A DNA stretch of 33,635 nt. Origin: an uncultured Alphaproteobacteria bacterium (GTDB taxonomy: Bacteria; Pseudomonadota; Alphaproteobacteria; Rhodobacterales; Rhodobacteraceae). The stretch spans positions 1-33,635 of the forward strand of contig CACIAQ010000020.1 of assembly GCA_902584635.1 (NCBI GenBank). The letters are read 5' to 3'. The notes under the pieces are model-generated. The model ran no database searches, had not been told where the DNA came from, and was given only the letters and a program-made list of their open reading frames with translations. The first letter of the stretch is position 1. Every line of letters begins with the position of its first letter. The translations under genes were made by a program, and so were the position numbers. Positions 13,441-24,291 of the stretch are shown here, one piece after another.

Positions 13441-14049
13441 ATGGTGAAGGCGATGGATGAGAAAAGATTGAGAGAGATTTACGGCCCTGCTAAGGAAAAA
13501 GCTGCAGCTAAAATTTTAGACAAATTAGATAAACACTGTGTAAGTTTTATTGAGAACTCATCTTTTGTTATTGTTGGGACACTAAATGATCAAAATATTG
13601 ATCTGTCACCAAAAGGTGATCCTCATGGCTTTGTAAAAGTAATAAATGAAAGTTTTTTAGAGATTCCAGATAGACCAGGCAATAACCGCATAGATGGCCT
13701 ATTAAATATTTTAAAAAATAATTTTGTTTCCCTTTTGTTTTTTATTCCAGGCGTTAATGAAACATTAAGAGTACAAGGGAGAGCCACAATATGTGAGGAT
13801 CTTGAGATAAGAGAAAGACATAAATTACACTCTAATATTCCAAAAACTGTTATAAGAATACAGGTTACCCAAGCACATTTACACTGTGGGAAGTCAATAT
13901 TGAGAGGAAGTTTATGGCATTTTGATAAATGGCCCAGAACGCGTCCTATTCCAACCCTTTTTGAAATGATCGAAGATCAAACAGGTATTGAATGCGAAGT
14001 CAAGGAGGATAACGATATTATCGCTCAATACCGTAAGGATCTTTACTGA
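13441..14049 (+). CDS. Pyridoxamine 5'-phosphate oxidase-like FMN protein (DR2398-like)
   Basis: 202 residues from ATG 13441; an in-frame ATG at 13453 gives a more typical N-terminus (MDEKRLREIYG) but neither has a well-placed ribosome site. The pattern FVIVGTLN, LSPKGDPHGFVKV, FLEIPDRPGNNRIDG and then RVQGRATI matches the FMN-binding split-barrel proteins known from DR2398 and relatives (TIGR04025 style). The C-terminal half has KSILRGSLWHFDKWP. Such proteins bind FMN, or possibly F420, and reduce unknown substrates. Given the F420 genes 6 kb away, an F420 link is possible but not shown. Confidence 0.82.
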   Translation: MVKAMDEKRLREIYGPAKEKAAAKILDKLDKHCVSFIENSSFVIVGTLNDQNIDLSPKGDPHGFVKVINESFLEIPDRPGNNRIDGLLNILKNNFVSLLFFIPGVNETLRVQGRATICEDLEIRERHKLHSNIPKTVIRIQVTQAHLHCGKSILRGSLWHFDKWPRTRPIPTLFEMIEDQTGIECEVKEDNDIIAQYRKDLY

Positions 14050-14130
14050 ATAATCCTAGTCGTGAAATTAGTTTTCAATGGATACAATTTGAATTAGCCT
14101 ATTATTTTAGTGATTTTTAGAGGAGTTACG

Positions 14131-16866
14131 GTGCCTTTACCTTCAGGGGGAGATTTTAAACCAATATTAGAATACTACAGACGCTACTTGAAAGACCCCA
14201 ATAGCGTACCAATTGACTGGGCTATATACTTTGAAGAAACCCAGCATAGTAATCAGATAAACGAGAAGACTGCATTCCCAGACACAAAAAATCATAGTAT
14301 GTTGGACACTATAAAAATTAAGTACAGGCAGTATGGCCACTTAAGCGCAAAAACCGATCCATTAGATAGAAAAAATATTTCAGACCACTTAGAAATCAAA
14401 GAGGTAGTATCTGCAGCTTTAAAGGAAATTGAATTTCAAAAAGACAGGCATAATACTCAAAAACTTGAAGTCGAAAAAACTATTAAGAAGTTTAAATTTT
14501 TATATTCTGGCTCTATAGGACCTGAGTTTCATCATATAAATGACTCAAAAACAAAGGACTGGCTTTATACCACTTATGAACTTGTACGAGCCGAAAACCC
14601 TGAATTAAGGGATAAAAAGTACTCATTTTTTAATTTAATTAAGGCTAATGAGTTTGAAAAATTTTTACGAGTAAAATACCCCACCAAAAAAAAGTTTGGG
14701 TGTGAGGGAGCCGAAACTATCGTGCCATTAATACAAATGCTGTTGAGGAAAGCATCAAATAAAAATTTCAAGGAAATAATTATTGGAGGTATGCACAGGG
14801 GTCGGTTGAATGTAATTGCAAATGTTGCAAAGAAGCCTAATGAACATATTTTTGCTGAGCTTAAGGAAAAAAACTTTTTTACTGAAAACAAATATTTAAC
14901 TGGTGATGTTCCATATCATTTGGGTCACTCTAATATACTAGAATTTAATAAAAATAAAATTAATGTTTCAATATCACCACATCCCTCTCATCTATTAACC
15001 GTTGCTGCTTACACAATGGGAAAAGCAAGAGCTAAAATTGATCAAAATAATAAGATGGATAACATTTTATGTATCCAAATGCATACAGACGCAGCATTCT
15101 CTGGACAAGGATTAGCGTCAGAATTACTCCAACTAAGTAAGCTTTCCGGCTATTCAGTAAATGGCAGTATTCATGTGGTAGTTAACAATAAAATTGGATT
15201 TACTACTAGTGAGGAGGAAGGACGATCATCTTATTATTGTACTGATATCGCCAAAATGATAGAGGCTCCGGTTTTGCATGTAAATGGAGACGATCTCGAC
15301 GCAATTATACAAAGTGCTTCTTTGGCAATTATGTATCGGAAAAAATTTAAATCTGATATTTTCATAGATCTTGTATGTTATAGAAAATATGGTCATAACG
15401 AATTGGATGAACCTAGATTCACTGATCCTTTACTTTATAACAAAATTGATAATAAAGTTTCATCGATCGATCAGTGTCAGGAAAAGTTGCAAAACGACTT
15501 TAATGCAAAAAAATTTAGAAAAATCATTTCTGGACTTTATAACAGAGATTTAAATAGGTCGTTTGTCAAGTCTCACAGTTACAATACAAATAAAGGAAAT
15601 TGGTTGCTGAAAGATTGGAAAAAAATATCTTTTGCTACCGAACTTGATATAAATAAAAGGGTTACAACTGGAATTAAGGGTACAAAATTAAGGGAACTCT
15701 CAAAACTCCTAACTAAATCCCCAGATAATTTTCATCTCAATCCAAAAGTTTCAAAATTTCTTATGGAACGAGCGCAATCAGTCGAAAGTGGAAATAATAT
15801 AAATTGGTCTACTGCCGAAGCATTAGCACTCGCTGTATTACTGGATAAGGGTTTGCCCGTAAGATTTTCGGGACAAGATGTTATAAGAGGTACTTTCACG
15901 CAGCGGCATTGGGCAATTCATGATATTAAAAATGGAAAAAAATATACTGCTTTAAAAAATCTCTCAAGGGAGCAAGGTAGGTTTTCTCCTATAAATTCTC
16001 CTCTTTCCGAGTACTCTACCCTCTCATTCGAATATGGTTATAGTCTAGTAGATCCATATTCACTCACTATTTGGGAAGCACAATTTGGAGATTTTGCTAA
16101 TGGTGCTCAAACGACAATAGACCAAGTAATCTCTTGTTCCGAATACCGCTGGCGAAGAATGACTTCACTAGTATTACTTCTCCCCCATGGACTTGAAGGC
16201 CAAGGACCTGACCACTCTTCTTGTAGAGTAGAACGATTTCTTTCGCTTTGTGCAAATGGGAATATGCTTGTTGTAAACTGTTCCACGCCAGCGAACTATT
16301 TTCACCTTCTTCTTAAACAAATGGCTGCGCCCTATAGGAAACCACTAATCGTTTGCTCACCGAAATCATTACTTAGAAACAAACAGTGTGTTTCCTCACT
16401 AAAAGAATTTTCAGAAGACACCTTTTTTAGGAAAATACTGGTAAGCGATCCTAATGCTGATAGCAAAACGATCTATAGTAAGATTATATTCTGCTCAGGG
16501 AAGATACGGTACGACTTAGAAAAAACACTTCGATCAAAAAATCTTGAATTGAAAATCCTCGTGGTTTCGGTTGAACAATTATATCCATTCCCCCAAGCCG
16601 AAATAAAAGACATTCTTTCTCAGAAAGATGCTGGAGAGTATATATGGTGTCAAGAAGAGCCAAAAAACCAGGGCCCTTGGAAATATATTAAGGAAATGTT
16701 CGAATATTACTTCACCTATGAAATCCTAAATAAAAGAGACGGTTCTTTAACAAAAAAAATTCATCTTAGTTGTATTTCTAGGCCCCAAAGGGCCGCTCCA
16801 GACGGAGGTAACTATGCAATATTCGAAAAGGAACAAATGGAAATAATCGATGCGGCGTTAGGTTAG
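14131..16866 (+). CDS. sucA: 2-oxoglutarate dehydrogenase E1-like (SucA/DHTKD1 type)
   Basis: The GTG at 14131 is preferred because AGAGGAG sits 6-7 bases upstream, giving 911 residues; GTG 14110 lacks a ribosome site. This thiamin-diphosphate enzyme decarboxylates 2-oxoglutarate (or a close 2-oxoacid) and passes the acyl group to an E2. Motifs are MHRGRLNVIANVAKKPNEHI, GDVPYHLGHS, HTDAAFSGQGLASE, VVNNKIGFTTS, YCTDIAKMIEAPVLHVNGDD, GHNELDEP, RFSGQDVIRGTFTQRH, WEAQFGDFANGAQ and HGLEGQGPDHSSCRVERF. The N-terminal E2-binding leader is present (FKPILEYYRRYLKDPNS). No sucB, lpd or sucCD lies beside it. GHNELDEP and YCTDI are features also seen in DHTKD1-type 2-oxoadipate E1. The enzyme class is certain; the substrate is less so. 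Confidence 0.9.
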   Translation: MPLPSGGDFKPILEYYRRYLKDPNSVPIDWAIYFEETQHSNQINEKTAFPDTKNHSMLDTIKIKYRQYGHLSAKTDPLDRKNISDHLEIKEVVSAALKEIEFQKDRHNTQKLEVEKTIKKFKFLYSGSIGPEFHHINDSKTKDWLYTTYELVRAENPELRDKKYSFFNLIKANEFEKFLRVKYPTKKKFGCEGAETIVPLIQMLLRKASNKNFKEIIIGGMHRGRLNVIANVAKKPNEHIFAELKEKNFFTENKYLTGDVPYHLGHSNILEFNKNKINVSISPHPSHLLTVAAYTMGKARAKIDQNNKMDNILCIQMHTDAAFSGQGLASELLQLSKLSGYSVNGSIHVVVNNKIGFTTSEEEGRSSYYCTDIAKMIEAPVLHVNGDDLDAIIQSASLAIMYRKKFKSDIFIDLVCYRKYGHNELDEPRFTDPLLYNKIDNKVSSIDQCQEKLQNDFNAKKFRKIISGLYNRDLNRSFVKSHSYNTNKGNWLLKDWKKISFATELDINKRVTTGIKGTKLRELSKLLTKSPDNFHLNPKVSKFLMERAQSVESGNNINWSTAEALALAVLLDKGLPVRFSGQDVIRGTFTQRHWAIHDIKNGKKYTALKNLSREQGRFSPINSPLSEYSTLSFEYGYSLVDPYSLTIWEAQFGDFANGAQTTIDQVISCSEYRWRRMTSLVLLLPHGLEGQGPDHSSCRVERFLSLCANGNMLVVNCSTPANYFHLLLKQMAAPYRKPLIVCSPKSLLRNKQCVSSLKEFSEDTFFRKILVSDPNADSKTIYSKIIFCSGKIRYDLEKTLRSKNLELKILVVSVEQLYPFPQAEIKDILSQKDAGEYIWCQEEPKNQGPWKYIKEMFEYYFTYEILNKRDGSLTKKIHLSCISRPQRAAPDGGNYAIFEKEQMEIIDAALG

Positions 16867-16876
16867 CAATTTTAGT

Positions 16877-17998
16877 TTAATAATGTTTATGATGCAGCGA
16901 GGTAGAGTAATGTGATTTCAAAACATCTCCACCAAAGTCATTTTCTAAATCTCTCCAAACGGTGTGAATATGGTTAGCTCCTCTTTGTGTGTTATCGTAC
17001 TCAACAAATATTCGGCGTCCTTGGATTCTATAATAGTGAGGTTGATGTTTTTCTTTTTTTCCTGCCCAACAAAAAAATAAATTGTCAAAATCATCTCTAA
17101 TGTTTTTAAGTTGTTGATCAGCCATATTATCTGGTAATCGATCTAAATAAGCGTTCAATAAAGCCTCTAAAATTTCTTTTTGATTGTCTTTCAAATATAT
17201 TGATTGGACACCTTTAGGTTCAAGCGAGAACTTTATTGCTTCAATATGGCTTTCATCCAAACTCAACAATTTTTCGGCATTTTTTTGAAGGTCTAATAAA
17301 AGCTTTTTCATGTCTCCCTCGAATTCTCCTCTCCATAAATCGATGAGATCCATAGGTTTATCTCCATCAGTCACAAATGACCTATTACCGGTTGTTAAAT
17401 CTACAGGCGGTATTGCAGATATAAGAGCAGATTGCAAGTTAGTGCCCGATAAGGAAGTGAATAACTCTCGGCCAAGGTCTTCCAATGAAGCTAAAGGTCT
17501 ATGCAAATGCGGACCCAATAATGGACTATCTGCCGGGTCAGCTCCAAAAAAACTTGGTGTGAAAGATAAGACTTTTAGCCCCTTTATGGAATAATGCAAA
17601 GAAATATGATGGCCTCCTAGTCGCCATCCCCATTCCTTCTCAGATCCAGGATCTCCAAAAATACTTATGTAGTAAAGAAGAGGGTCTCTCCCCCGCTCTC
17701 TTTTAAAATTTACTTTAAAATCTTCAAGATTATCTAGTATATTATCAAGACCCATAATTGCGGCAACTGTATTAAAGCCTGAAGTGGAGAGCCCTGAGGA
17801 GACAAGGCTAAGCACTAATCTATGTTGGGTAGAGCTCATATCAGCAAAAGATAATCCACCATGATTAGTGGGCGTATAAAACCAAACGGTTCTATCTTGA
17901 TCAGAATAACTTTTTAATGCCAATCTTTTCTGAGATTTACTAAATGATTTAACCAAAGCTAAAGCTCTTATGGTCATTGTCTTTACAAAATTACTCAT
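16877..17998 (-). CDS. DUF3500-family protein
   Basis: 373 residues from ATG 17998. This start lies one base after the stop of the upstream FAD monooxygenase and has AGGTGA five bases before it, so it is preferred over GTG 18007. The sequence WFYTPTNHGGLSFADMSSTQ, WGWRLGGHHISLHYS, then FFGADPADSPLLG and a histidine-rich C-terminal part (IFVEYDNTQRGANHIHTVW, then WRDLENDFGGDVL) is typical of DUF3500. Members occur in bacteria and fungi and have no settled biochemistry. Conserved histidines (GGHHISLH, NHIHT) hint at a metal site. It is the last gene of a three-gene operon with an FDOR-type protein and an FAD monooxygenase. Confidence 0.88.
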   Translation of the reverse strand: MSNFVKTMTIRALALVKSFSKSQKRLALKSYSDQDRTVWFYTPTNHGGLSFADMSSTQHRLVLSLVSSGLSTSGFNTVAAIMGLDNILDNLEDFKVNFKRERGRDPLLYYISIFGDPGSEKEWGWRLGGHHISLHYSIKGLKVLSFTPSFFGADPADSPLLGPHLHRPLASLEDLGRELFTSLSGTNLQSALISAIPPVDLTTGNRSFVTDGDKPMDLIDLWRGEFEGDMKKLLLDLQKNAEKLLSLDESHIEAIKFSLEPKGVQSIYLKDNQKEILEALLNAYLDRLPDNMADQQLKNIRDDFDNLFFCWAGKKEKHQPHYYRIQGRRIFVEYDNTQRGANHIHTVWRDLENDFGGDVLKSHYSTSLHHKHY

Positions 17999-17999
17999 T

Positions 18000-19178
18000 T
18001 TATTCACCTGCTTTGTGAAGACCGAACAGGAACCTCTTTTCCTCAGGATTCCAGTTGTTGTAAACTTGTGATCTATCGCCTATCAGCCTTGTTCTGTTTA
18101 TTAAATCTTTCCCTAATCTAAGTTGCTTAGACTCCCATATTTTTAATGATTTATCGATATCTTTTTGTTTCTCGAGCGAATTGGCCAATTGCCAACCATC
18201 TTCAGCAGCTTTAGCAGAGCCTGCTGCAGCATGTGGCCTAGCAACGAATGCGGCATCACCTAAAAGACAAATTCTTTGAAAGACCATTTTATCAACAGAA
18301 ACATCGTACACTACTTGAATAAAAGGATTTTGGGTGGCATCTACTAAATTAGCTATATCCCTAGGCATTCTAGCTTTCGCTACGGCTTTCGCTTCAAGCA
18401 CGTGGTGCTCTTTTAATAATCCTGGTGGAACAGATATAGATCGATATTTGCCATCATTACCTGTAAGCAAATCATTTAATTCACTTCCCTCCGCATAGTT
18501 CCTATACCAAACAAAATTTATCAACCTCTCTCCTTTTTTAACAGAGCCATCTAGAGAGGGAATCGGATACACGAGAATGTGACTATTAGCGAAAACGTAA
18601 TAGGTTATAGCTTCTGAAAGGCTTTCTCTTAATTTTTGATCAAGATCGCTTTCCGAGACCATTCCTCTCCATGCAACATAACCAGAATAATTACTTAATA
18701 CATTAGGTAAAAGTTTTTTTCTACTATCTGAACCAACTCCATCCGCACAAATCATTAGATCAAAAGTCGCAGACTCTCCATTTTTAAACTTAGCAGTTAC
18801 AACTTTGGAGTCATTTTCCCAATCAACAAGCTCCTGGCCGAGGTTGTAAGAATTAGAATCAAACCTTCTAAGCAGAAGTTTATATACTGTTGTCCAGGAA
18901 CTAAATCGATAAGTATGGGCTTTTTCGAAAGTTATTTCATTTTGTCTATCAAGATAACGAATTTTTGGTGTTTTTACACTTATGTCATCTAGATCAATTT
19001 TCGCAAAAGTTTTAAGATATCGTGACGCTGGCTCTAAAAAACCTATCCCAGCACCACGTTGTTCAAGCTCACTTTGTGACCTTTCGAAAACCTCGACTTC
19101 TGCTATACCGCGGTCTCTTAAAAGACACGCGGCAGTCAGTCCTCCTATGGATCCGCCGATTATTCCGACTTTTACCAA
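18000..19178 (-). CDS. FAD-dependent aromatic-type monooxygenase
   Basis: 392 residues of the PHBH-like flavoprotein monooxygenase class. Motifs: the Rossmann loop GGSIGGL (residues 8-14), acidic end-of-strand EVFERS, the DG motif ICADGVGSDSR, and the GD motif LLGDAAFVARPHAAAGSAKAAEDG. The GGSIGG form and the GD motif resemble 2,6-dihydroxypyridine hydroxylase-like enzymes. The start is a TTG at 19178 lying inside the last codons of the upstream gene (TTGGTAA overlap). No ATG or GTG occurs before the flavin-binding strand, so translational coupling is likely. It sits between the FDOR-type protein and DUF3500. It may hydroxylate an aromatic or N-heterocyclic compound. Confidence 0.9.
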   Translation of the reverse strand: MVKVGIIGGSIGGLTAACLLRDRGIAEVEVFERSQSELEQRGAGIGFLEPASRYLKTFAKIDLDDISVKTPKIRYLDRQNEITFEKAHTYRFSSWTTVYKLLLRRFDSNSYNLGQELVDWENDSKVVTAKFKNGESATFDLMICADGVGSDSRKKLLPNVLSNYSGYVAWRGMVSESDLDQKLRESLSEAITYYVFANSHILVYPIPSLDGSVKKGERLINFVWYRNYAEGSELNDLLTGNDGKYRSISVPPGLLKEHHVLEAKAVAKARMPRDIANLVDATQNPFIQVVYDVSVDKMVFQRICLLGDAAFVARPHAAAGSAKAAEDGWQLANSLEKQKDIDKSLKIWESKQLRLGKDLINRTRLIGDRSQVYNNWNPEEKRFLFGLHKAGE

Positions 19179-19702
19179 TTATTCCAATCAAATGTTCCAA
19201 ATGTTGCAACATTATCTACCTTGCATTCAAATAGAATTCTTTTCTCTGGAAAAGAGGGATCTCTGAGAGGATATTCATCAACACCTAGATATTTCTTTGC
19301 AATTTTATTTAGTTGATTTATTACTTTCTCTCCACCTTCATCATCTTCATGGGTTGACTGTTCTACAGTAACTTTTAAACTTAGCCAATGATACATCTCT
19401 TTTGGATTTACTATCATTATTGAAATTTGTGGATTATCTTTTATCCACTTTGTTTTCTTTCTATGCTCGGCCACATTTACGAGAACTTTGTCTCCTTCAT
19501 AATCAAACCACATTGGAGTCAAATTTGGCCTACCAATACCACCCATAACAGCCATAACGCACGCTATCGGTTCGTCCATTAGTCTTTTATACATTGGGTC
19601 GAGATCAGATATGCTCTCAATTTTTTCTCTATCACCGATGGTGAATTGGTTTGCGGTAACACCCTCTCTTAAGTCAATAAACTTTGCTACTTGTACCCCC
19701 AT
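19172..19702 (-). CDS. Split-barrel F420/FMN oxidoreductase (FDOR-B/PPOX-like)
   Basis: 176 residues. ATG 19702 is chosen because GGAAGGAG lies six bases upstream; an in-frame start at 19768 would add 22 unsupported residues. The pattern PIACVMAVMGGIGRPNLTP, MWFDYEGDKVLVNVAEHRKK, TKWIKDNPQISIMIVNP and YHWLSLKVTVE is that of the FDOR-B / pyridoxamine-phosphate-oxidase-like split barrel, whose members use F420 or FMN. The adjacent cofGHC operon makes F420 the more likely cofactor. First gene of the leftward operon, it overlaps the FAD monooxygenase by 7 bp. Its start lies 74 bp from the inverted repeat at 19776-19801. Confidence 0.85.
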   Translation of the reverse strand: MGVQVAKFIDLREGVTANQFTIGDREKIESISDLDPMYKRLMDEPIACVMAVMGGIGRPNLTPMWFDYEGDKVLVNVAEHRKKTKWIKDNPQISIMIVNPKEMYHWLSLKVTVEQSTHEDDEGGEKVINQLNKIAKKYLGVDEYPLRDPSFPEKRILFECKVDNVATFGTFDWNNW

Positions 19703-19775
19703 ATTATGCTCCTTCCCTTTTAAATTAAATTTCCCCTTCGATGATATCACTTTGTTGAATTGCTTCAATTTAAAT

Positions 19776-19801
19776 TTACCTTAGGGAATAACTTAAGGTA
19801 A
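19776..19801. promoter_or_regulatory. Candidate shared operator: 8-bp inverted repeat with 10-bp spacer
   Basis: TTACCTTA at 19776-19783 is repeated as its perfect reverse complement TAAGGTAA at 19794-19801. The centre is about 74 bp from the chosen FDOR start (19702) and 73 bp from the chosen cofG start (19874), so it sits midway between two divergent operons. The spacing of about two helical turns between arm ends fits a dimeric repressor or activator site. No regulator gene is adjacent. The alternative is a chance palindrome in AT-rich DNA. Confidence 0.5.
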
Positions 19802-19873
19802 GCAATTCTTTGAAACAATGATTGCCTATCTCTTTTAAACATGTCATATTGGAAACTACGGGGGGAAATTGCT

Positions 19874-21053
19874 ATGACGCGATTGTTGTTTAATACTGAG
19901 AGTATTAGGGACTTTGCAATTCAGGAAAATGAAATATCTTTTTATCGAAATTTAGTTAAAAGATCTCCTTTAGACATTTTAATGGCTAAAGCTTCTAGCA
20001 AGAGAGATGACTATTGGGGTAAAGTTATCACCTACTCAAAAAAGGTTTTTGTTCCACTCACAAACATGTGTAGGGATTCATGCAGTTATTGTACGTTTGT
20101 AAAGCACCCCGATCATCCTGAGGCTAAGATAATGTCTCCCGAGGAAGTATTACTGTCTGCACAAATGGGAGAAAAAAAGGGGTGTAAAGAACTACTATTT
20201 AGTTTGGGAGAAAAGCCTGAAAAAAAGTATGTAAAGCCCAAAAAAGCTCTAGAGGCTCTTGGTTATAACTCTATGACTGATTATCTCCATGATATGTGTA
20301 AAATGGTTATTGAGAAGACATTCCTCCTACCTCATGTAAATGCTGGCACTCTTAGTGAGTATGAACTCAAAAAACTCAAAAATGTTTCTGCATCGATGGG
20401 TATGATGCTGGAGACAACTAGCAAGAGACTAAACAAAATTGGTGAAGCTCACTATGCATGTCCGGATAAAGTACCGATTCAGAGGATAAGGACTTTAGTT
20501 GCCGCAGGATGTTCGAAAGTGCCCTTCACTACAGGTATTCTCATTGGTATAGGCGAAACTTTTGATGAAAGGATTGAAGCCCTTCTATTGATAGAAAAAA
20601 TCAATAATCGATACGGTCACATTCAGGAAGTAATAATTCAAAATTTTCAGAGAAAGCCTGATATCGCTATGGCGAAACACCCCGAACCGACATTAAATGA
20701 CATGTTGGAAACCATAGCCCTCGCTAGAATTATTTTAAGCCCATCGATAAGTATCCAAGCCCCCCCCCAATCTAGAGAAGGAACATATTGAATACATTAA
20801 TGCTGGGATTAATGATTGGGGTGGCATATCTCCGGTGACGCAAGACTTCATCAACCCTCAACATCCTTGGCCAAATATTGATGCGCTCGATACCATGGTG
20901 AGAAATGCCGGTTTTGAGCTGGGTGAAAGATTAACAGTTTATCCGAAATTTAATACGCGACAGTTTTTATCTCCGACAATTAGCGCTCATATTTCAAAGA
21001 GTGCAAATAAGTTTCATCCAACTGATAAACCTAAGAAATTGGAATCAGCATGA
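19874..21053 (+). pseudogene. cofG: FO synthase subunit 1 (CofG), frameshifted in a C9 run
   Basis: CofG and CofH together make the deazaflavin FO, the core of coenzyme F420; CofG is the radical-SAM partner that closes the ring. ATG 19874 is chosen because GGGGGGAA lies upstream. The radical-SAM cluster motif CRDSCSYC is at C66, C70 and C73. The frame runs to a run of nine C at 20760-20768, then goes off into a short tail and TGA. Eight C would continue seamlessly as PPNLEKEHIEYINAGINDW, GGISPVTQDF and on to the true C-terminus at 21053. The repaired protein is 392 residues. The stop overlaps the cofH start by ATGA, the normal operon arrangement. It is either a sequencing error, phase variation or real inactivation. 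Confidence 0.9.
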
Positions 21054-22288
21054 AAGACCTGCATACAGTTTGTACATTCACAGACCAAGCCCAAATTTTT
21101 ATGGATGTCTCAAAAGACATTCGTTTAATTCTGGAAAATTCTCTCAGCGACAGGCGTCCGAGCTCAAATGATATTGAACGATTATTTCTTACCACTGGTA
21201 AAGAAAAAAAGGCTGTTTTAAAAGTTGCAGATTGGCTAAGAAAAAAGATAAATGGCGATAACGTCAGCTTTGTAATCAACAGGAATATTAATTTTACTAA
21301 TGTCTGTTACATGGGTTGTAAATTCTGCGGTTTTGCCAAGCGTCTAGATGAAGAAGGAGCTGAATGGATAAGTGTAGAGCAAGTAGTACAGCGAGCAGAG
21401 GAGGCCTGGAATAGAGGTGCTTCGGAAGTATGTATTCAGGGCGGACTTCATCCGAAACTTCCTGGCACATATTATCGAGATTTATTGATTGCGTTAAAAA
21501 AAGCGCTACCCAAGTTACACATACACGCTTATTCTCCTTTTGAAATTTGGTATGGTGCGAAGAAAATGAAACTAAGCCATTCAGATTTTCTCGAAGATTT
21601 AAAGGAATGTGGATTAGGTTCTATGCCTGGGACAGCTGCAGAGATTTTAGATAAACAAATAAGGGAAAAACTCACAAAAAACAAGCTAAGTACTGCTCGT
21701 TGGGTTGAAATAATCAAGGCTGCACACAGTTTGGGAATCCCTTCAACAGCAACTATTATGTATGGCCATATCGACGCTCCAATGCACTGGGCTATTCACC
21801 TTGATACTATCCGTCGGATACAGATAGAGACTGGTGGTTTTACAGAATTTGTTCCATTGTCATTTGTTCATTTCGATTCCCCATTATTTCTTGAGAATCC
21901 CAATCTTGTAAGACCAGGTGCATCCGATAATGAAATAGACCTTATGCATGCTGTCTCACGAATTGCCTTAAATGGATTAATCGATAACGTCCAGGTTTCT
22001 TGGACAAAATTGGGGGCTGAAAGAGCAAGAAATCTTTTGTCGATGGGCGTGAATGATATGGGGGGAACTCTTATGAATGAAAGTATCTCTCGCTCAGCTG
22101 GATCAAAGAATGGCCAAGAAATTACAGAAAGAGAAATGGTAGATATAATCCGGTCAGCGTCTAAAGTACCTGTTAGAAGAAATACTTTATATAAAACGAT
22201 AAAAACCTACGGGACTAATGAGGCTGTAACTACTTCTGAGCCTCTAGTTTCAAGAGATGGACAAAATCCACTAAGTTTTTTAAAGTAA
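21050..22288 (+). CDS. cofH: FO synthase subunit 2 (CofH)
   Basis: 412 residues. CofH joins 5-amino-6-ribitylaminouracil to tyrosine by radical-SAM chemistry, giving the substrate of CofG. The cluster cysteines are in CYMGCKFCGF (C86, C90 and C93). Other family hallmarks are EVCIQGGLHPKLPGTYY, HIHAYSPFE, GLGSMPGTAAEIL, ATIMYGHID and WTKLGAERARNLLSMGVNDM followed by GGTLMNESISRSAG. The start overlaps the cofG stop (ATGA), so the pair is translationally coupled; a cofG frameshift would remove the terminating ribosome and could reduce cofH translation. It is followed by cofC after 11 bp. The gene is intact. Confidence 0.96.
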   Translation: MKDLHTVCTFTDQAQIFMDVSKDIRLILENSLSDRRPSSNDIERLFLTTGKEKKAVLKVADWLRKKINGDNVSFVINRNINFTNVCYMGCKFCGFAKRLDEEGAEWISVEQVVQRAEEAWNRGASEVCIQGGLHPKLPGTYYRDLLIALKKALPKLHIHAYSPFEIWYGAKKMKLSHSDFLEDLKECGLGSMPGTAAEILDKQIREKLTKNKLSTARWVEIIKAAHSLGIPSTATIMYGHIDAPMHWAIHLDTIRRIQIETGGFTEFVPLSFVHFDSPLFLENPNLVRPGASDNEIDLMHAVSRIALNGLIDNVQVSWTKLGAERARNLLSMGVNDMGGTLMNESISRSAGSKNGQEITEREMVDIIRSASKVPVRRNTLYKTIKTYGTNEAVTTSEPLVSRDGQNPLSFLK

Positions 22289-22299
22289 AAAATAATTAA

Positions 22300-22953
22300 A
22301 TGAAATTCAGAAATTATCAAAATAGAACCACAATCTTAATTCCTATGAGAGCCCTAAATGAAGGGAAAAGCCGTTTATCCAACGTTCTTTCTCCTAGTAG
22401 TAGGTCAAGGCTAGTAGAGCTTTTGTTTTCTCAGCTTCTTAAGAAATTAAATATATTAAGATGCCAATTTCCTGGGATCTTCTCGGACGTAGTTGTGATA
22501 ACACCATGCAAAAAAGTAAAAGATTTATCGGAGGAATTTAATGCTATTGTACTTGAAGAACCAATGCCAAACAATCTCAACTCAGCTTTAACTTTAGGTT
22601 TACGCTGGTCGGATGAGAACGATTATAATTCTAGTCTTATAATTCCTGGAGATATCATTGATCCACTTACTAAAGATATTAAAAAAATTATAACTTTAGG
22701 AAAAAAAGCCTCGGAATGTATGATAATTTCTCCGTCAATTGACTTCGGTACAAACGCACTATTTCTAAATCTTCCCACAAAAATGAATCTTAAATTTGGA
22801 CCAAACTCATTCTTTGAGCATCAAAAGGAAGCTGAGAAAAAATCAATTAAAACAATAATAGCTCCTTTAGATAGCCTTAAAGATGACTTAGATACGGGTA
22901 AAGACCTGAGGTTGCTGAAAACCAAAAAACCATCTTTATTCAAAAAAATCTGA
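22300..22953 (+). CDS. cofC: Phospholactate guanylyltransferase (CofC/FbiD family)
   Basis: 217 residues. The enzyme activates a three-carbon phosphoacid (2-phospholactate, phosphoenolpyruvate or 3-phosphoglycerate by lineage) with GTP, for transfer to FO by CofD. Recognised features are ILIPMRALNEGKSRLSN at the N-terminus (nucleotide-binding loop with RxxxxKSRL), VVVITPCKK, LGLRWSDE, the metal-binding aspartate region in LIIPGDIIDPLT, GTNALFLNLP, FGPNSFFEHQKEAEK and a closing LDSLKDDLDTGKDLRL. PGDIID differs from the usual PxDLP-type loop. The start has no clear ribosome site and lies 11 bp after cofH. cofD and cofE are not in the window. Which phosphoacid is used cannot be told by eye. Confidence 0.88.
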   Translation: MKFRNYQNRTTILIPMRALNEGKSRLSNVLSPSSRSRLVELLFSQLLKKLNILRCQFPGIFSDVVVITPCKKVKDLSEEFNAIVLEEPMPNNLNSALTLGLRWSDENDYNSSLIIPGDIIDPLTKDIKKIITLGKKASECMIISPSIDFGTNALFLNLPTKMNLKFGPNSFFEHQKEAEKKSIKTIIAPLDSLKDDLDTGKDLRLLKTKKPSLFKKI

Positions 22954-23382: not shown

Positions 23383-24291
23383 CTATGCCTGTGCCCAAAT
23401 CTGATGCGCAGCTTTTACAACAGTTGCATGGCGATGAGCAAGCTCGCGCTTGTCATGGGAGTATCCACCTCCCATCACTGTTGCTATCGGGATATCCCTT
23501 TTCTTGAAAAAGTTCAATACTGTCACTTCTCTCTCAAAAAGACCTTCATCATCGATACTTAATCTACCCAGCTTATCATTAGCATGTATATCAACTCCTG
23601 CTACATATAGAACCAAGTCTGGAGAAAATCTTTCTATGCATTTATTCAATCCGTCTACCAAGTGCTTCTTATACCCAAACCAAGACATGTTATCCTCCAA
23701 ACCGATATCGAGATCACTGTTAGCCTTTCTGTAAGGAAAATTTTTTGAAGAATGTATTGAACAGGTGAATATTTTATCATTATTCTCTAATATTCTAGCT
23801 GTTCCATCTCCTTGATGCACATCACAATCGAAAATCAGAATATTTTTTACTTCTTTTGTTTTAGTCAAGGTTAATGCTGTAAAAGCTAGATCATTAAATA
23901 CACAAAACCCTGATCCAAAATCAAAATGAGAGTGATGGGTACCCCCTGCCAAATGACATGAAACGCCGTATTGCATGGCAGATCTCGCAGCTAATAAGGA
24001 TCCATTTACGGCAATAAAGGATCTCTTTGCCAATACTGGACTCCAATGCAACCCTAGCCTCCTCTGTTCTTTTTCATCTAATGAACCATTTGCTATCTTC
24101 TCAACATATTCGCTACAATGAGCGATGCAAACTTGTTCTGCATTCGCCTTTTCCGGCACTAGAATGGTCGCAGAATCCATATATTCAGACTTTTTTAATA
24201 ATTCGAAGAGATCTGAAAACTTTGTTGAGGTAAATCTATGCCCTGGAGGCAACGGAATATCATATTCAGGATGTGTAATCCAAGTTATCAT
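23383..24291 (-). CDS. Histone-deacetylase-like amidohydrolase
   Basis: 302 residues of the arginase/deacetylase fold. Active-site motifs: AGGTHHSHFDFGSGFCVFND (the paired catalytic histidines in THHSH), IFDCDVHQGDGTA (zinc ligands D and H), and YVAGVDIHANDKLG (third zinc ligand D). VMGGGYS near the end is also typical, where the Y is the transition-state tyrosine. Sequence features are closest to HDAC11/class IV-like bacterial members. Bacterial homologues hydrolyse acetyl-polyamines or acyl amides, so the natural substrate is uncertain. ATG 24291 has GAGGGG upstream. It is followed on the same strand by the small membrane ORF. Confidence 0.92.
   Translation of the reverse strand: MITWITHPEYDIPLPPGHRFTSTKFSDLFELLKKSEYMDSATILVPEKANAEQVCIAHCSEYVEKIANGSLDEKEQRRLGLHWSPVLAKRSFIAVNGSLLAARSAMQYGVSCHLAGGTHHSHFDFGSGFCVFNDLAFTALTLTKTKEVKNILIFDCDVHQGDGTARILENNDKIFTCSIHSSKNFPYRKANSDLDIGLEDNMSWFGYKKHLVDGLNKCIERFSPDLVLYVAGVDIHANDKLGRLSIDDEGLFEREVTVLNFFKKRDIPIATVMGGGYSHDKRELAHRHATVVKAAHQIWAQA

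Follow-up and report, generated by a model that had tools for sequence, protein, structure and literature searches.

An inserted redox gene block beside a distinct cofGHC haplotype, a candidate F420-linked module in an uncultured alphaproteobacterial genus

Related systems and layout of the locus

Loci for F420 synthesis of the cofGHC/fbiC type have cofG, cofH and cofC as signature genes. The FDOR-B reductases (MSMEG_3380, Rv1155 and Rv2074) share a split-barrel fold; according to the available sections of a review (PMC8498797), enzymes of the FDOR-B group take part in antibiotic pathways. Its Table 1 gives Actinobacteria and Chloroflexi for FDOR-A/B, and for the two Alphaproteobacteria that were tested the same sections rate F420 as a trace, minor or niche cofactor. 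A hydroxylase, PhyA, is paired with a DUF3500 protein, AN10530 (a putative dioxygenase), in the fungal 1,2,3,5-tetrahydroxybenzene pathway, as given in the accessible text of PMC12388069; excerpts of PMC13094099 treat this pathway as restricted to fungi so far. The sole solved DUF3500 relative that we found is ApmL/Amc20 (PDB 9x86), whose entry is titled 'dehydratase ApmL in Amipurimycin biosynthesis'; ApmL goes unmentioned in the available parts of PMC12247030, PMC10698177 and PMC11188666. Literature searches on DUF3500, F420 and related terms returned, in the portions of text available, no description of an F420 module with DUF3500.

The window (the whole 33,635-nt stretch of DNA analysed) holds cofG, cofH and cofC running rightward, opposite a leftward operon encoding a split-barrel FDOR, an FAD-dependent monooxygenase (FMO) and a DUF3500 protein (Table 1). 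This arrangement, proposed in an earlier note from the sequence, is borne out by profile scores above curated cut-offs for the three cof genes (for cofG, the first piece) and by ORF coordinates, with overlaps of 7 bp between FDOR and FMO and 8 bp between FMO and DUF3500. The span assigned to it there, 19172-22953, leaves out FMO and DUF3500, although both were named. The six genes listed are present, but the ThDP-type partner sucA2 and a break in cofG were missed; the ORF at 19841-20791 does match TIGR03550 but is only the first part of cofG.

Table 1. Features of the cofGHC locus and the adjoining redox genes in the window
Feature	Coordinates	Strand	Remarks
FMN-type PPOX flavoprotein, native left neighbour	13441..14049	+	TIGR04025, 214 bits
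sucA2 (second, divergent 2-oxoglutarate-dehydrogenase-type E1, ThDP)	14110..16866	+	918 aa; left end of insert; NF006914
DUF3500 protein	16877..18007	-	376 aa; PF12006
FAD-dependent monooxygenase (FMO, PRK07236 group)	18000..19178	-	392 aa; NF005566
Split-barrel FDOR/PPOX reductase	19172..19702	-	176 aa from ATG at 19702; TIGR03618 below cut-off
Divergent intergenic region	19703..19840	.	Imperfect inverted repeat at 19775-19802
cofG, broken at C9 run	19841..21053	+	TIGR03550 (first piece); second piece by comparison
cofH	21050..22288	+	412 aa; TIGR03551
cofC	22300..22953	+	217 aa; TIGR03552; right end of divergent haplotype

Cofactor synthesis genes and the FDOR

The first piece of CofG scored 354 bits against TIGR03550 (cut-off 213), CofH 475 bits against TIGR03551 (cut-off 374) and CofC 118 bits against TIGR03552 (cut-off 105). 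The break in cofG lies at the sole run of at least eight C in the window, a C9 at 20760-20768; downstream of it, the rest of CofG continues in a different frame (20769-21053) and overlaps the start of cofH. This 94-aa second piece has no Pfam match and was identified against the intact 403-aa copy in the sister genome G011; in relatives with kept context, cofG is intact, with ORFs of 392-415 aa. The break is either an assembly error or a real mutation. Whereas cofG and cofH are unfused in the window, frames of at least 801 aa, the size of the FbiC fusion, occur in all 14 other cofG-positive Alphaproteobacteria sampled.

F420 synthesis appears to be genus-wide. cofD was retrieved from 15 of 22 genus genomes, in one as a fragment, and was not found in the genome of the window, which is 77.5% complete; no cofH match was obtained in the genus genomes G004 and G006. 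In G011, cofD, cofE and the NADPH:F420 reductase gene npdG are located about 49 kb from cofGHC, with cofE and npdG over their cut-offs and cofD just under (255.0 vs 257.5); an LLM F420 protein is also encoded there.

The FDOR, whose ATG at 19702 agrees with ortholog starts, resembles FDOR-B enzymes in its split-barrel fold, in its best sequence and fold matches and in its presence with F420 genes. It matched TIGR03618 (Rv1155_F420) with an E-value of 1.3e-15 and 57.7 bits, below the cut-off of 79.05, as did three orthologs at 67.6-74.6 bits. A structural model (pLDDT 78, built from 9 sequences) had the MSMEG_3380 F420 reductase as its best fold match (1.5e-8) and an F420 complex as the third, placing the fold nearest to F420 enzymes, as in FDOR-B; the list also includes FMN and heme proteins, among them HutZ. 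The protein differs from described FDOR-B reductases in its sub-threshold score, in its first ~35 residues, which are conserved in orthologs and not covered by the best PDB sequence matches, and in its alphaproteobacterial host.

Among sampled Alphaproteobacteria, cofG was present in 5/5 genomes with a strong FDOR ortholog versus 5 of 40 FDOR-negative ones (Fisher p 2e-4), and in 9/9, from eight families, when four weaker matches were added (p 1e-6). Together with the fold match to MSMEG_3380, this agrees with the earlier description of the FDOR as a probable cofactor user; F420 is its likely cofactor. In trees, the FDOR and FMO of the window group with actinobacterial trio sequences, apart from alphaproteobacterial FDORs. 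Among plasmid records, 16 match the FDOR, none at 60% or more.

An insert, a separate haplotype and a recurrent trio

All 12 non-carrier genus genomes with kept context have an empty site, while 5 of 22 genus genomes carry the insert, complete in G000, G011 and G012; in G018 and G014 it runs off a contig end. Homology to non-carriers ends at 14050 on the left (blastn), and on the right the divergence of carriers stops within the gene after cofC. Mean identity between carriers and non-carriers at fourfold sites is 36, 42 and 42% for cofG, cofH and cofC, compared with 72-81% in six of the seven flanking genes (G002, G008, G010, G014, G018 and G021 left aside). Fast protein evolution as the source of the cofGHC divergence was ruled out, since fourfold sites diverge too.

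Trees built without G002, G008, G014, G018 and G021 place the carrier cofGHC in one clade (support 100/100), while a single carrier clade is rejected for the flanks (AU p 9e-5); the flank tree is weakly resolved, having good support at 3 of its 12 inner branches, and a first tree preceded the AU test. The disagreement between the cofGHC tree and that of the flanks indicates that cofGHC moves together with the redox genes as one block, and the sequence comparisons support inheritance of the two as a unit, with the carrier cofGHC as a separate haplotype. At its left end the block is variable: the PPOX gene is diverged in G000 and G012 (77% and 76% to G020) and near-native in G011 (90%). The inverted repeat in the divergent intergenic region is similar in G011 and not kept in G012.

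Outside the genus, the order FDOR-FMO-DUF3500 recurs in nine actinobacterial loci, seven of them with an ALS-like ThDP gene. Seven trio loci were among the best 80 DUF3500 loci and two among 11 further actinobacterial FDOR loci, where genes within ~6.5 kb were compared and FMO adjoins the FDOR in 10/11. The recurrence of this order, and the block's standing as a distinct haplotype, argue that the arrangement is more than chance. cofG is present in all nine full-trio genomes outside the genus, so that the trio was not found to occur widely without F420 genes; it also occurs in the genome of L111, where FDOR and DUF3500 alone were seen. In the actinobacterial class, this co-occurrence is weak evidence, because cofG is likewise present in 19 of 20 FDOR-negative genomes.

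In every locus read outside the genus, the trio or the FDOR stands without cofGHC at its side. The adjacency from which the earlier note argued is, among the trio and FDOR loci read, confined to this genus, which leaves that part of its interpretation unsupported in the form given, and a widely conserved cofGHC-trio operon was rejected. As no other trio locus adjoins cofGHC, the link could be one of locus sharing.

A candidate pathway and its alternatives

FMO scored 425 bits against NF005566/PRK07236 (cut-off 333). Its best PDB match is the 2,6-dihydroxypyridine 3-hydroxylase 2vou of the PRK07236 group (6.8e-65), with homology over the full length; the nicotine-plasmid dhpH is 34.5% identical, but no pyridine pathway was recognised beside the window FMO. 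Elsewhere in the class, none of 384 others matched FMO at 1e-110, with at most four candidates scored per genome. The DUF3500 protein, whose gene adjoins and overlaps that of this aromatic-type hydroxylase, reaches the gathering score of PF12006 (256 bits; cut-off 27). Residues H133, H134, H346, H348, R327, R352 and D357 are invariant in 36/36 and 14/14 sequences of two alignments. Its sole significant fold match is 9x86; ApmL/Amc20 has no counterpart of residues 214-262 of the window protein and belongs to a natural-product cluster. Ring opening by DUF3500 is what we infer, one relative being called a dehydratase and another a putative dioxygenase.

SucA2, by its sequence, is at the level of curated 2-oxoglutarate dehydrogenase E1 equivalogs (982 bits against NF006914, cut-off 764; 824 against TIGR00239, cut-off 770) and is 43% identical to the canonical SucA (994-aa frame) on another contig, C5, of the same genome. 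It occurs in 5 of 22 genus genomes, the same five that carry the insert whole or cut by a contig end. A role as sole SucA was rejected, as four of five carriers, that of C5 included, have a canonical copy (none was recovered in G011). Actinobacterial clusters do not encode SucA2, except for Kgd in L110 and L221, which was dropped as proof of a ThDP partner because both loci group together. An ALS-like ThDP gene adjoins the FDOR in 6 of 7 trio loci of the best-80 set and 7 of 11 further FDOR loci; profiles were run on two of these genes.

With the insert, the haplotype, the conserved gene order and the co-occurrence of FDOR with F420 synthesis demonstrated by genome comparison, we propose, with about even confidence, that sucA2, DUF3500, FMO and FDOR make up an accessory redox module gained by horizontal transfer, which lies beside a distinct cofGHC, is inherited with it and would act as an F420-dependent ring-modifying pathway. 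FMO would hydroxylate a phenolic or heteroaromatic ring, which DUF3500 would then open or dehydrate once activated; FDOR could use F420H2 to reduce an intermediate at a quinone or a C=C/C=N bond; SucA2, in actinobacteria mostly the ALS-like enzyme, might act on the resulting 2-oxoacid; and CofG, CofH and CofC would provide FO together with the activated precursor of the F420 side chain. That hydroxylation is joined to F420 reduction in one pathway, as the earlier note suggested, is plausible. The ring chemistry is as apt to be wrong as right, and the order of steps is a tentative guess, unlikely to hold in full. The proposal is weakened by the sub-threshold FDOR score, the FMN and heme folds listed, the missing cofD and the broken cofG of this genome, the variable left end of the block and the near absence of SucA2 from the actinobacterial clusters, and by the occurrence of DUF3500 without F420 genes and the dehydratase title of its solved relative.

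Somewhat unlikely, in our view, is that an ordinary acquired cluster landed at the cofGHC locus and that the linked cofGHC was swapped by hitch-hiking recombination with a relative, with no functional tie to F420. The confinement of the adjacency to this genus and the recombination visible near the left end, in the PPOX gene, favour such an event, whereas the tracking of F420 synthesis by this FDOR subfamily in Alphaproteobacteria and its nearest folds, F420 reductases, speak for a functional link. A biosynthetic module, in which a small molecule is built or modified by FMO, a DUF3500 dehydratase, FDOR and the ThDP enzyme, would fit the amipurimycin context of ApmL and the antibiotic-pathway roles of FDOR-B enzymes in the available sections of PMC8498797; the insert encodes four enzymes and no synthase, carrier or transport gene, which makes it distinctly unlikely. 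Least probable of all is that the FDOR belongs to the split-barrel proteins that bind FMN or heme, its co-occurrence with F420 reflecting shared ancestry or lifestyle: the TIGR03618 score and the presence of HutZ and FMN proteins in the fold list point that way, but against it stand the first and third fold matches and the 9/9 cofG co-occurrence across eight families.

Under the F420-dependent reading, the comparisons suggest that a pathway in need of the cofactor has spread in an uncultured genus in company with part of the genes for making it. A candidate F420 user, a hydroxylase and DUF3500, which has no settled bacterial function, form a module common to actinobacteria and this genus, and the exchange of early cofactor genes with it inside the genus offers a defined gene set for probing the roles of F420 and DUF3500. 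A more specific version, quite improbable, is a bacterial equivalent of the fungal tetrahydroxybenzene route, with which it shares the pairing of an aromatic-type hydroxylase and DUF3500: FDOR and F420H2 might keep an easily oxidised polyhydroxylated ring reduced for cleavage by DUF3500, SucA2 or the ALS-like enzyme might handle a six-carbon dioxo-acid, and part of cofactor synthesis would travel along as the haplotype. The window module is bacterial, however, and the accessible text on the fungal pathway mentions no F420 or ThDP partner.

DUF3500 itself was rejected as a marker of F420: most loci lack FMO and FDOR, and both non-actinobacterial DUF3500 genomes examined have no cofG over the cut-off (one weak match, 3.5e-4). 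None of the 20 other DUF3500 loci of the own class has FMO, FDOR or cof genes, and 71 of the 80 best loci lack FMO and FDOR, many being interrupted by contig ends. The remaining nine comprise the seven trio loci together with L111 (FDOR) and L118 (FMO); an FDOR-like match at 22% identity in L175 was left out of this count. Of six DUF3500 plasmid regions, four gave no clear hint from annotation, one is unannotated and one resembles ring degradation.

Gene arrangement and the empty site

The described arrangement of cofGHC facing a leftward FDOR-FMO-DUF3500 operon (the trio) with overlapping ends was borne out: cofG, cofH and cofC lie on the plus strand, divergent from the trio genes, which overlap by 7 and 8 bp. 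In this draft genome (G000; 2.0 Mb, 92 contigs, 77.5% complete; the window is contig C20), the cofG ORF ends past a C9 run, and the remainder of CofG lies in another frame, overlapping the cofH start; an intact copy of 403 aa is present in the congeneric G011. An imperfect inverted repeat of 11 pairs between the two operons, a possible operator, has a similar counterpart in G011 and is not kept in G012.

Coordinates of the features discussed
Feature	Position	Strand	Remark
Cytochrome P450	3099-4304		left flank
PPOX	13441-14049	+	FMN-type flavoprotein
sucA2	14110-16866	+	divergent OGDH E1-type (ThDP)
DUF3500	16877-18007	-	
FMO	18000-19178	-	FAD monooxygenase
FDOR	19172-19702	-	split-barrel reductase
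Inverted repeat	19775-19802		candidate operator
cofG	19841-21053	+	separate from cofH
cofH	21050-22288	+	
cofC	22300-22953	+	
Histone-deacetylase-type amidohydrolase-like gene	23383-24291		named by eye; no NCBIfam match
F420 cluster L253	G011 C1:88000-104000		LLM is TIGR03842

PPOX is directly followed by cofG in 12 of the 22 genomes of the genus (L052-L063). The sucA2, DUF3500, FMO and FDOR block separates them in G000, G011 and G012, and partial inserts occur in G018 (contig end just beyond FMO) and G014 (contig end within sucA2). Outside the empty-site count are G009, whose contig is cut inside cofG, and G008 and G021, with another context; no cofH match was found in G004 and G006. Compared with the non-carrier G020, homology ends at 14050, one base past the PPOX stop, and restarts at 19965, within cofG. 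SucA2, a full E1 by profile, is encoded in 5/22 genomes (those with full or partial inserts), a count on which draft gaps bear, no SucA match of any kind having been found in 3/22. F420 synthesis is genus-wide, with cofH in 18/22 and cofD in 15/22 genomes. The histone-deacetylase-like gene lies right of cofC in every genome with kept context. P450s in the left flanks of several sister genomes are only 25-28% identical to that of the window, so this site may be variable. The top plasmid matches of an SDR gene in the flank lie in Sulfitobacter, Mameliella and Sinorhizobium, which points to Alphaproteobacteria as the probable class.

Two cofGHC haplotypes

Between G000 and 12 main-clade non-carriers, identity was 71-77% for cofG, 71-74% for cofH and 59-64% for cofC, against 91-97% for the flanking ABC, HDAC-like, NDT and TauE genes, 88-97% for SDR, 84-92% for glyox, 84-87% for MBL and 77-82% for PPOX. 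The G020 cofGHC was 87-95% identical to those of other main-clade non-carriers. At fourfold sites (3 carriers, 11 non-carriers), mean carrier/non-carrier identity was 36% for cofG and 42% for cofH and cofC, 72-81% for ABC, HDAC, SDR, NDT, MBL and TauE, and 60% for PPOX; cofGHC means inside either group were 70-85%. Across 15 genomes, carriers formed one clade in the cofGHC tree (support 100/100), while a single carrier clade was rejected by the weakly resolved flank tree (AU p 9e-5). Together, the identity, fourfold-site and tree comparisons thus indicate, from three full carriers that are all incomplete drafts, that cofactor and redox genes are exchanged as one block, with a left end that differs from carrier to carrier. 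The donor of the carrier cofGHC may have been a relative within the wider genus, since the outlying species G010 shares slightly more identity with this haplotype (cofG 75-79, cofH 77-79, cofC 61-62%) than with that of non-carriers (71-73, 71-72 and 55-58%).

The trio elsewhere and its link to F420

We scanned genomes with a DUF3500 alignment and examined the best 80 loci, 7 of which contain FDOR, FMO and DUF3500 together: L107, L108, L109, L112 and L130 in Acidimicrobiales, L110 in an acIV bin and L117 in Pseudonocardia. L111 has FDOR and DUF3500 only. Identities are 50-71% (FDOR), 46-57% (FMO) and 43-52% (DUF3500). An ALS-like ThDP gene adjoins FDOR in 6/7 trio loci (divergent in L117), and Kgd takes its place in L110. 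FDOR orthologs at 1e-30 were retrieved from 12 of 296 genomes in the class of L107, its own included; at the other 11 loci, two of which (L224, L228) are cut near FMO, FDOR is adjoined by FMO in 10 and by a ThDP gene in 7, and DUF3500 is present in 2 (L221, L225). As a recurring order, cofGHC next to trio genes did not hold up, being found beside FDOR at 0/11 of these loci.

The window FDOR grouped with L107/L109 (support 93/84, not full), outside the alphaproteobacterial FDOR clade, and the window FMO, whose alignment rows have an unusual letter make-up, fell inside the trio group (85/94, not full). The FDOR orthologs L247-L251, which lack FMO and come from five families of Alphaproteobacteria, branch together as a separate clade; the ORF adjoining FDOR in L251 is LLM-like by eye.

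The trio did not prove widespread without F420 genes, which would have counted against the F420 link drawn in the earlier note: cofG is present in 9/9 full-trio genomes outside the genus (G471 and G538 included) and in the L111 genome, but likewise in 19/20 FDOR-negative genomes of the same class. F420 is patchy in Alphaproteobacteria. Outside the genus, cofG accompanies 5/5 strong FDOR orthologs there, all without FMO, or 9/9 counting weaker matches, and occurs in 5/40 genomes negative for FDOR, sampled in the order listed (p 2e-4 and 1e-6, respectively, by Fisher test, uncorrected for relatedness). The best fold match of the FDOR AlphaFold model (pLDDT 78) was the F420 reductase MSMEG_3380, and Rv2074 with F420 followed; FMN and heme proteins were among the remainder, and FDOR scored below the TIGR03618 cut-off.

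Putative pathway and cofactor supply

The closest solved protein to FMO is 2,6-dihydroxypyridine hydroxylase. The confident DUF3500 model (pLDDT 89) had ApmL/Amc20, titled a dehydratase, as its sole significant fold match. All 36 relatives in a set chosen by a pattern that includes the GHH motif keep five His, Glu336 and two Asp; in an independent set, His133, 134, 346 and 348, Arg327, Arg352 and Asp357 occur in 14/14, Glu336 in 13 and His324 in 7, compatible with a putative metal or acid-base site. According to a review, a DUF3500 protein of fungi is a putative dioxygenase that opens 1,2,3,5-tetrahydroxybenzene, the product of PhyA (PMC12388069), and another article places this pathway so far in fungi (PMC13094099). 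One of six plasmid DUF3500 regions examined has adjoining cupin, AMP-binding and fumarylacetoacetate-hydrolase-family genes.

Judged from these sequences, the enzymes would form a chemically coherent set, their order being a guess: FMO would hydroxylate the substrate, DUF3500 would open the ring or dehydrate, FDOR would reduce with F420H2 and the ThDP enzyme would process an oxo-acid. The component families are already known; in the literature searched, available in part, we found neither the module with a ThDP partner, nor its position beside unfused cofG/cofH, nor the haplotype exchange.

Cofactor supply for the module is plausible because one G011 cluster (L253) encodes cofD (just under the cut-off), cofE, an NADPH:F420 reductase and an LLM F420 protein. 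Its dihydropyrimidinase-like and allantoate-amidohydrolase-like genes suggest a role for F420 in the metabolism of pyrimidines or hydantoins. The separate cofG and cofH of the genus differ from the FbiC fusion; in the other cofG-positive Alphaproteobacteria sampled, 14/14 frames are of FbiC-fusion size (at least 801 aa). Another F420 arrangement, cofG-cofH-cofD-cofC in a row, occurs in G008 (L065) and G021 (L066), with a divergent cofC (35-36%) and, in G021, a cofH broken by stops.
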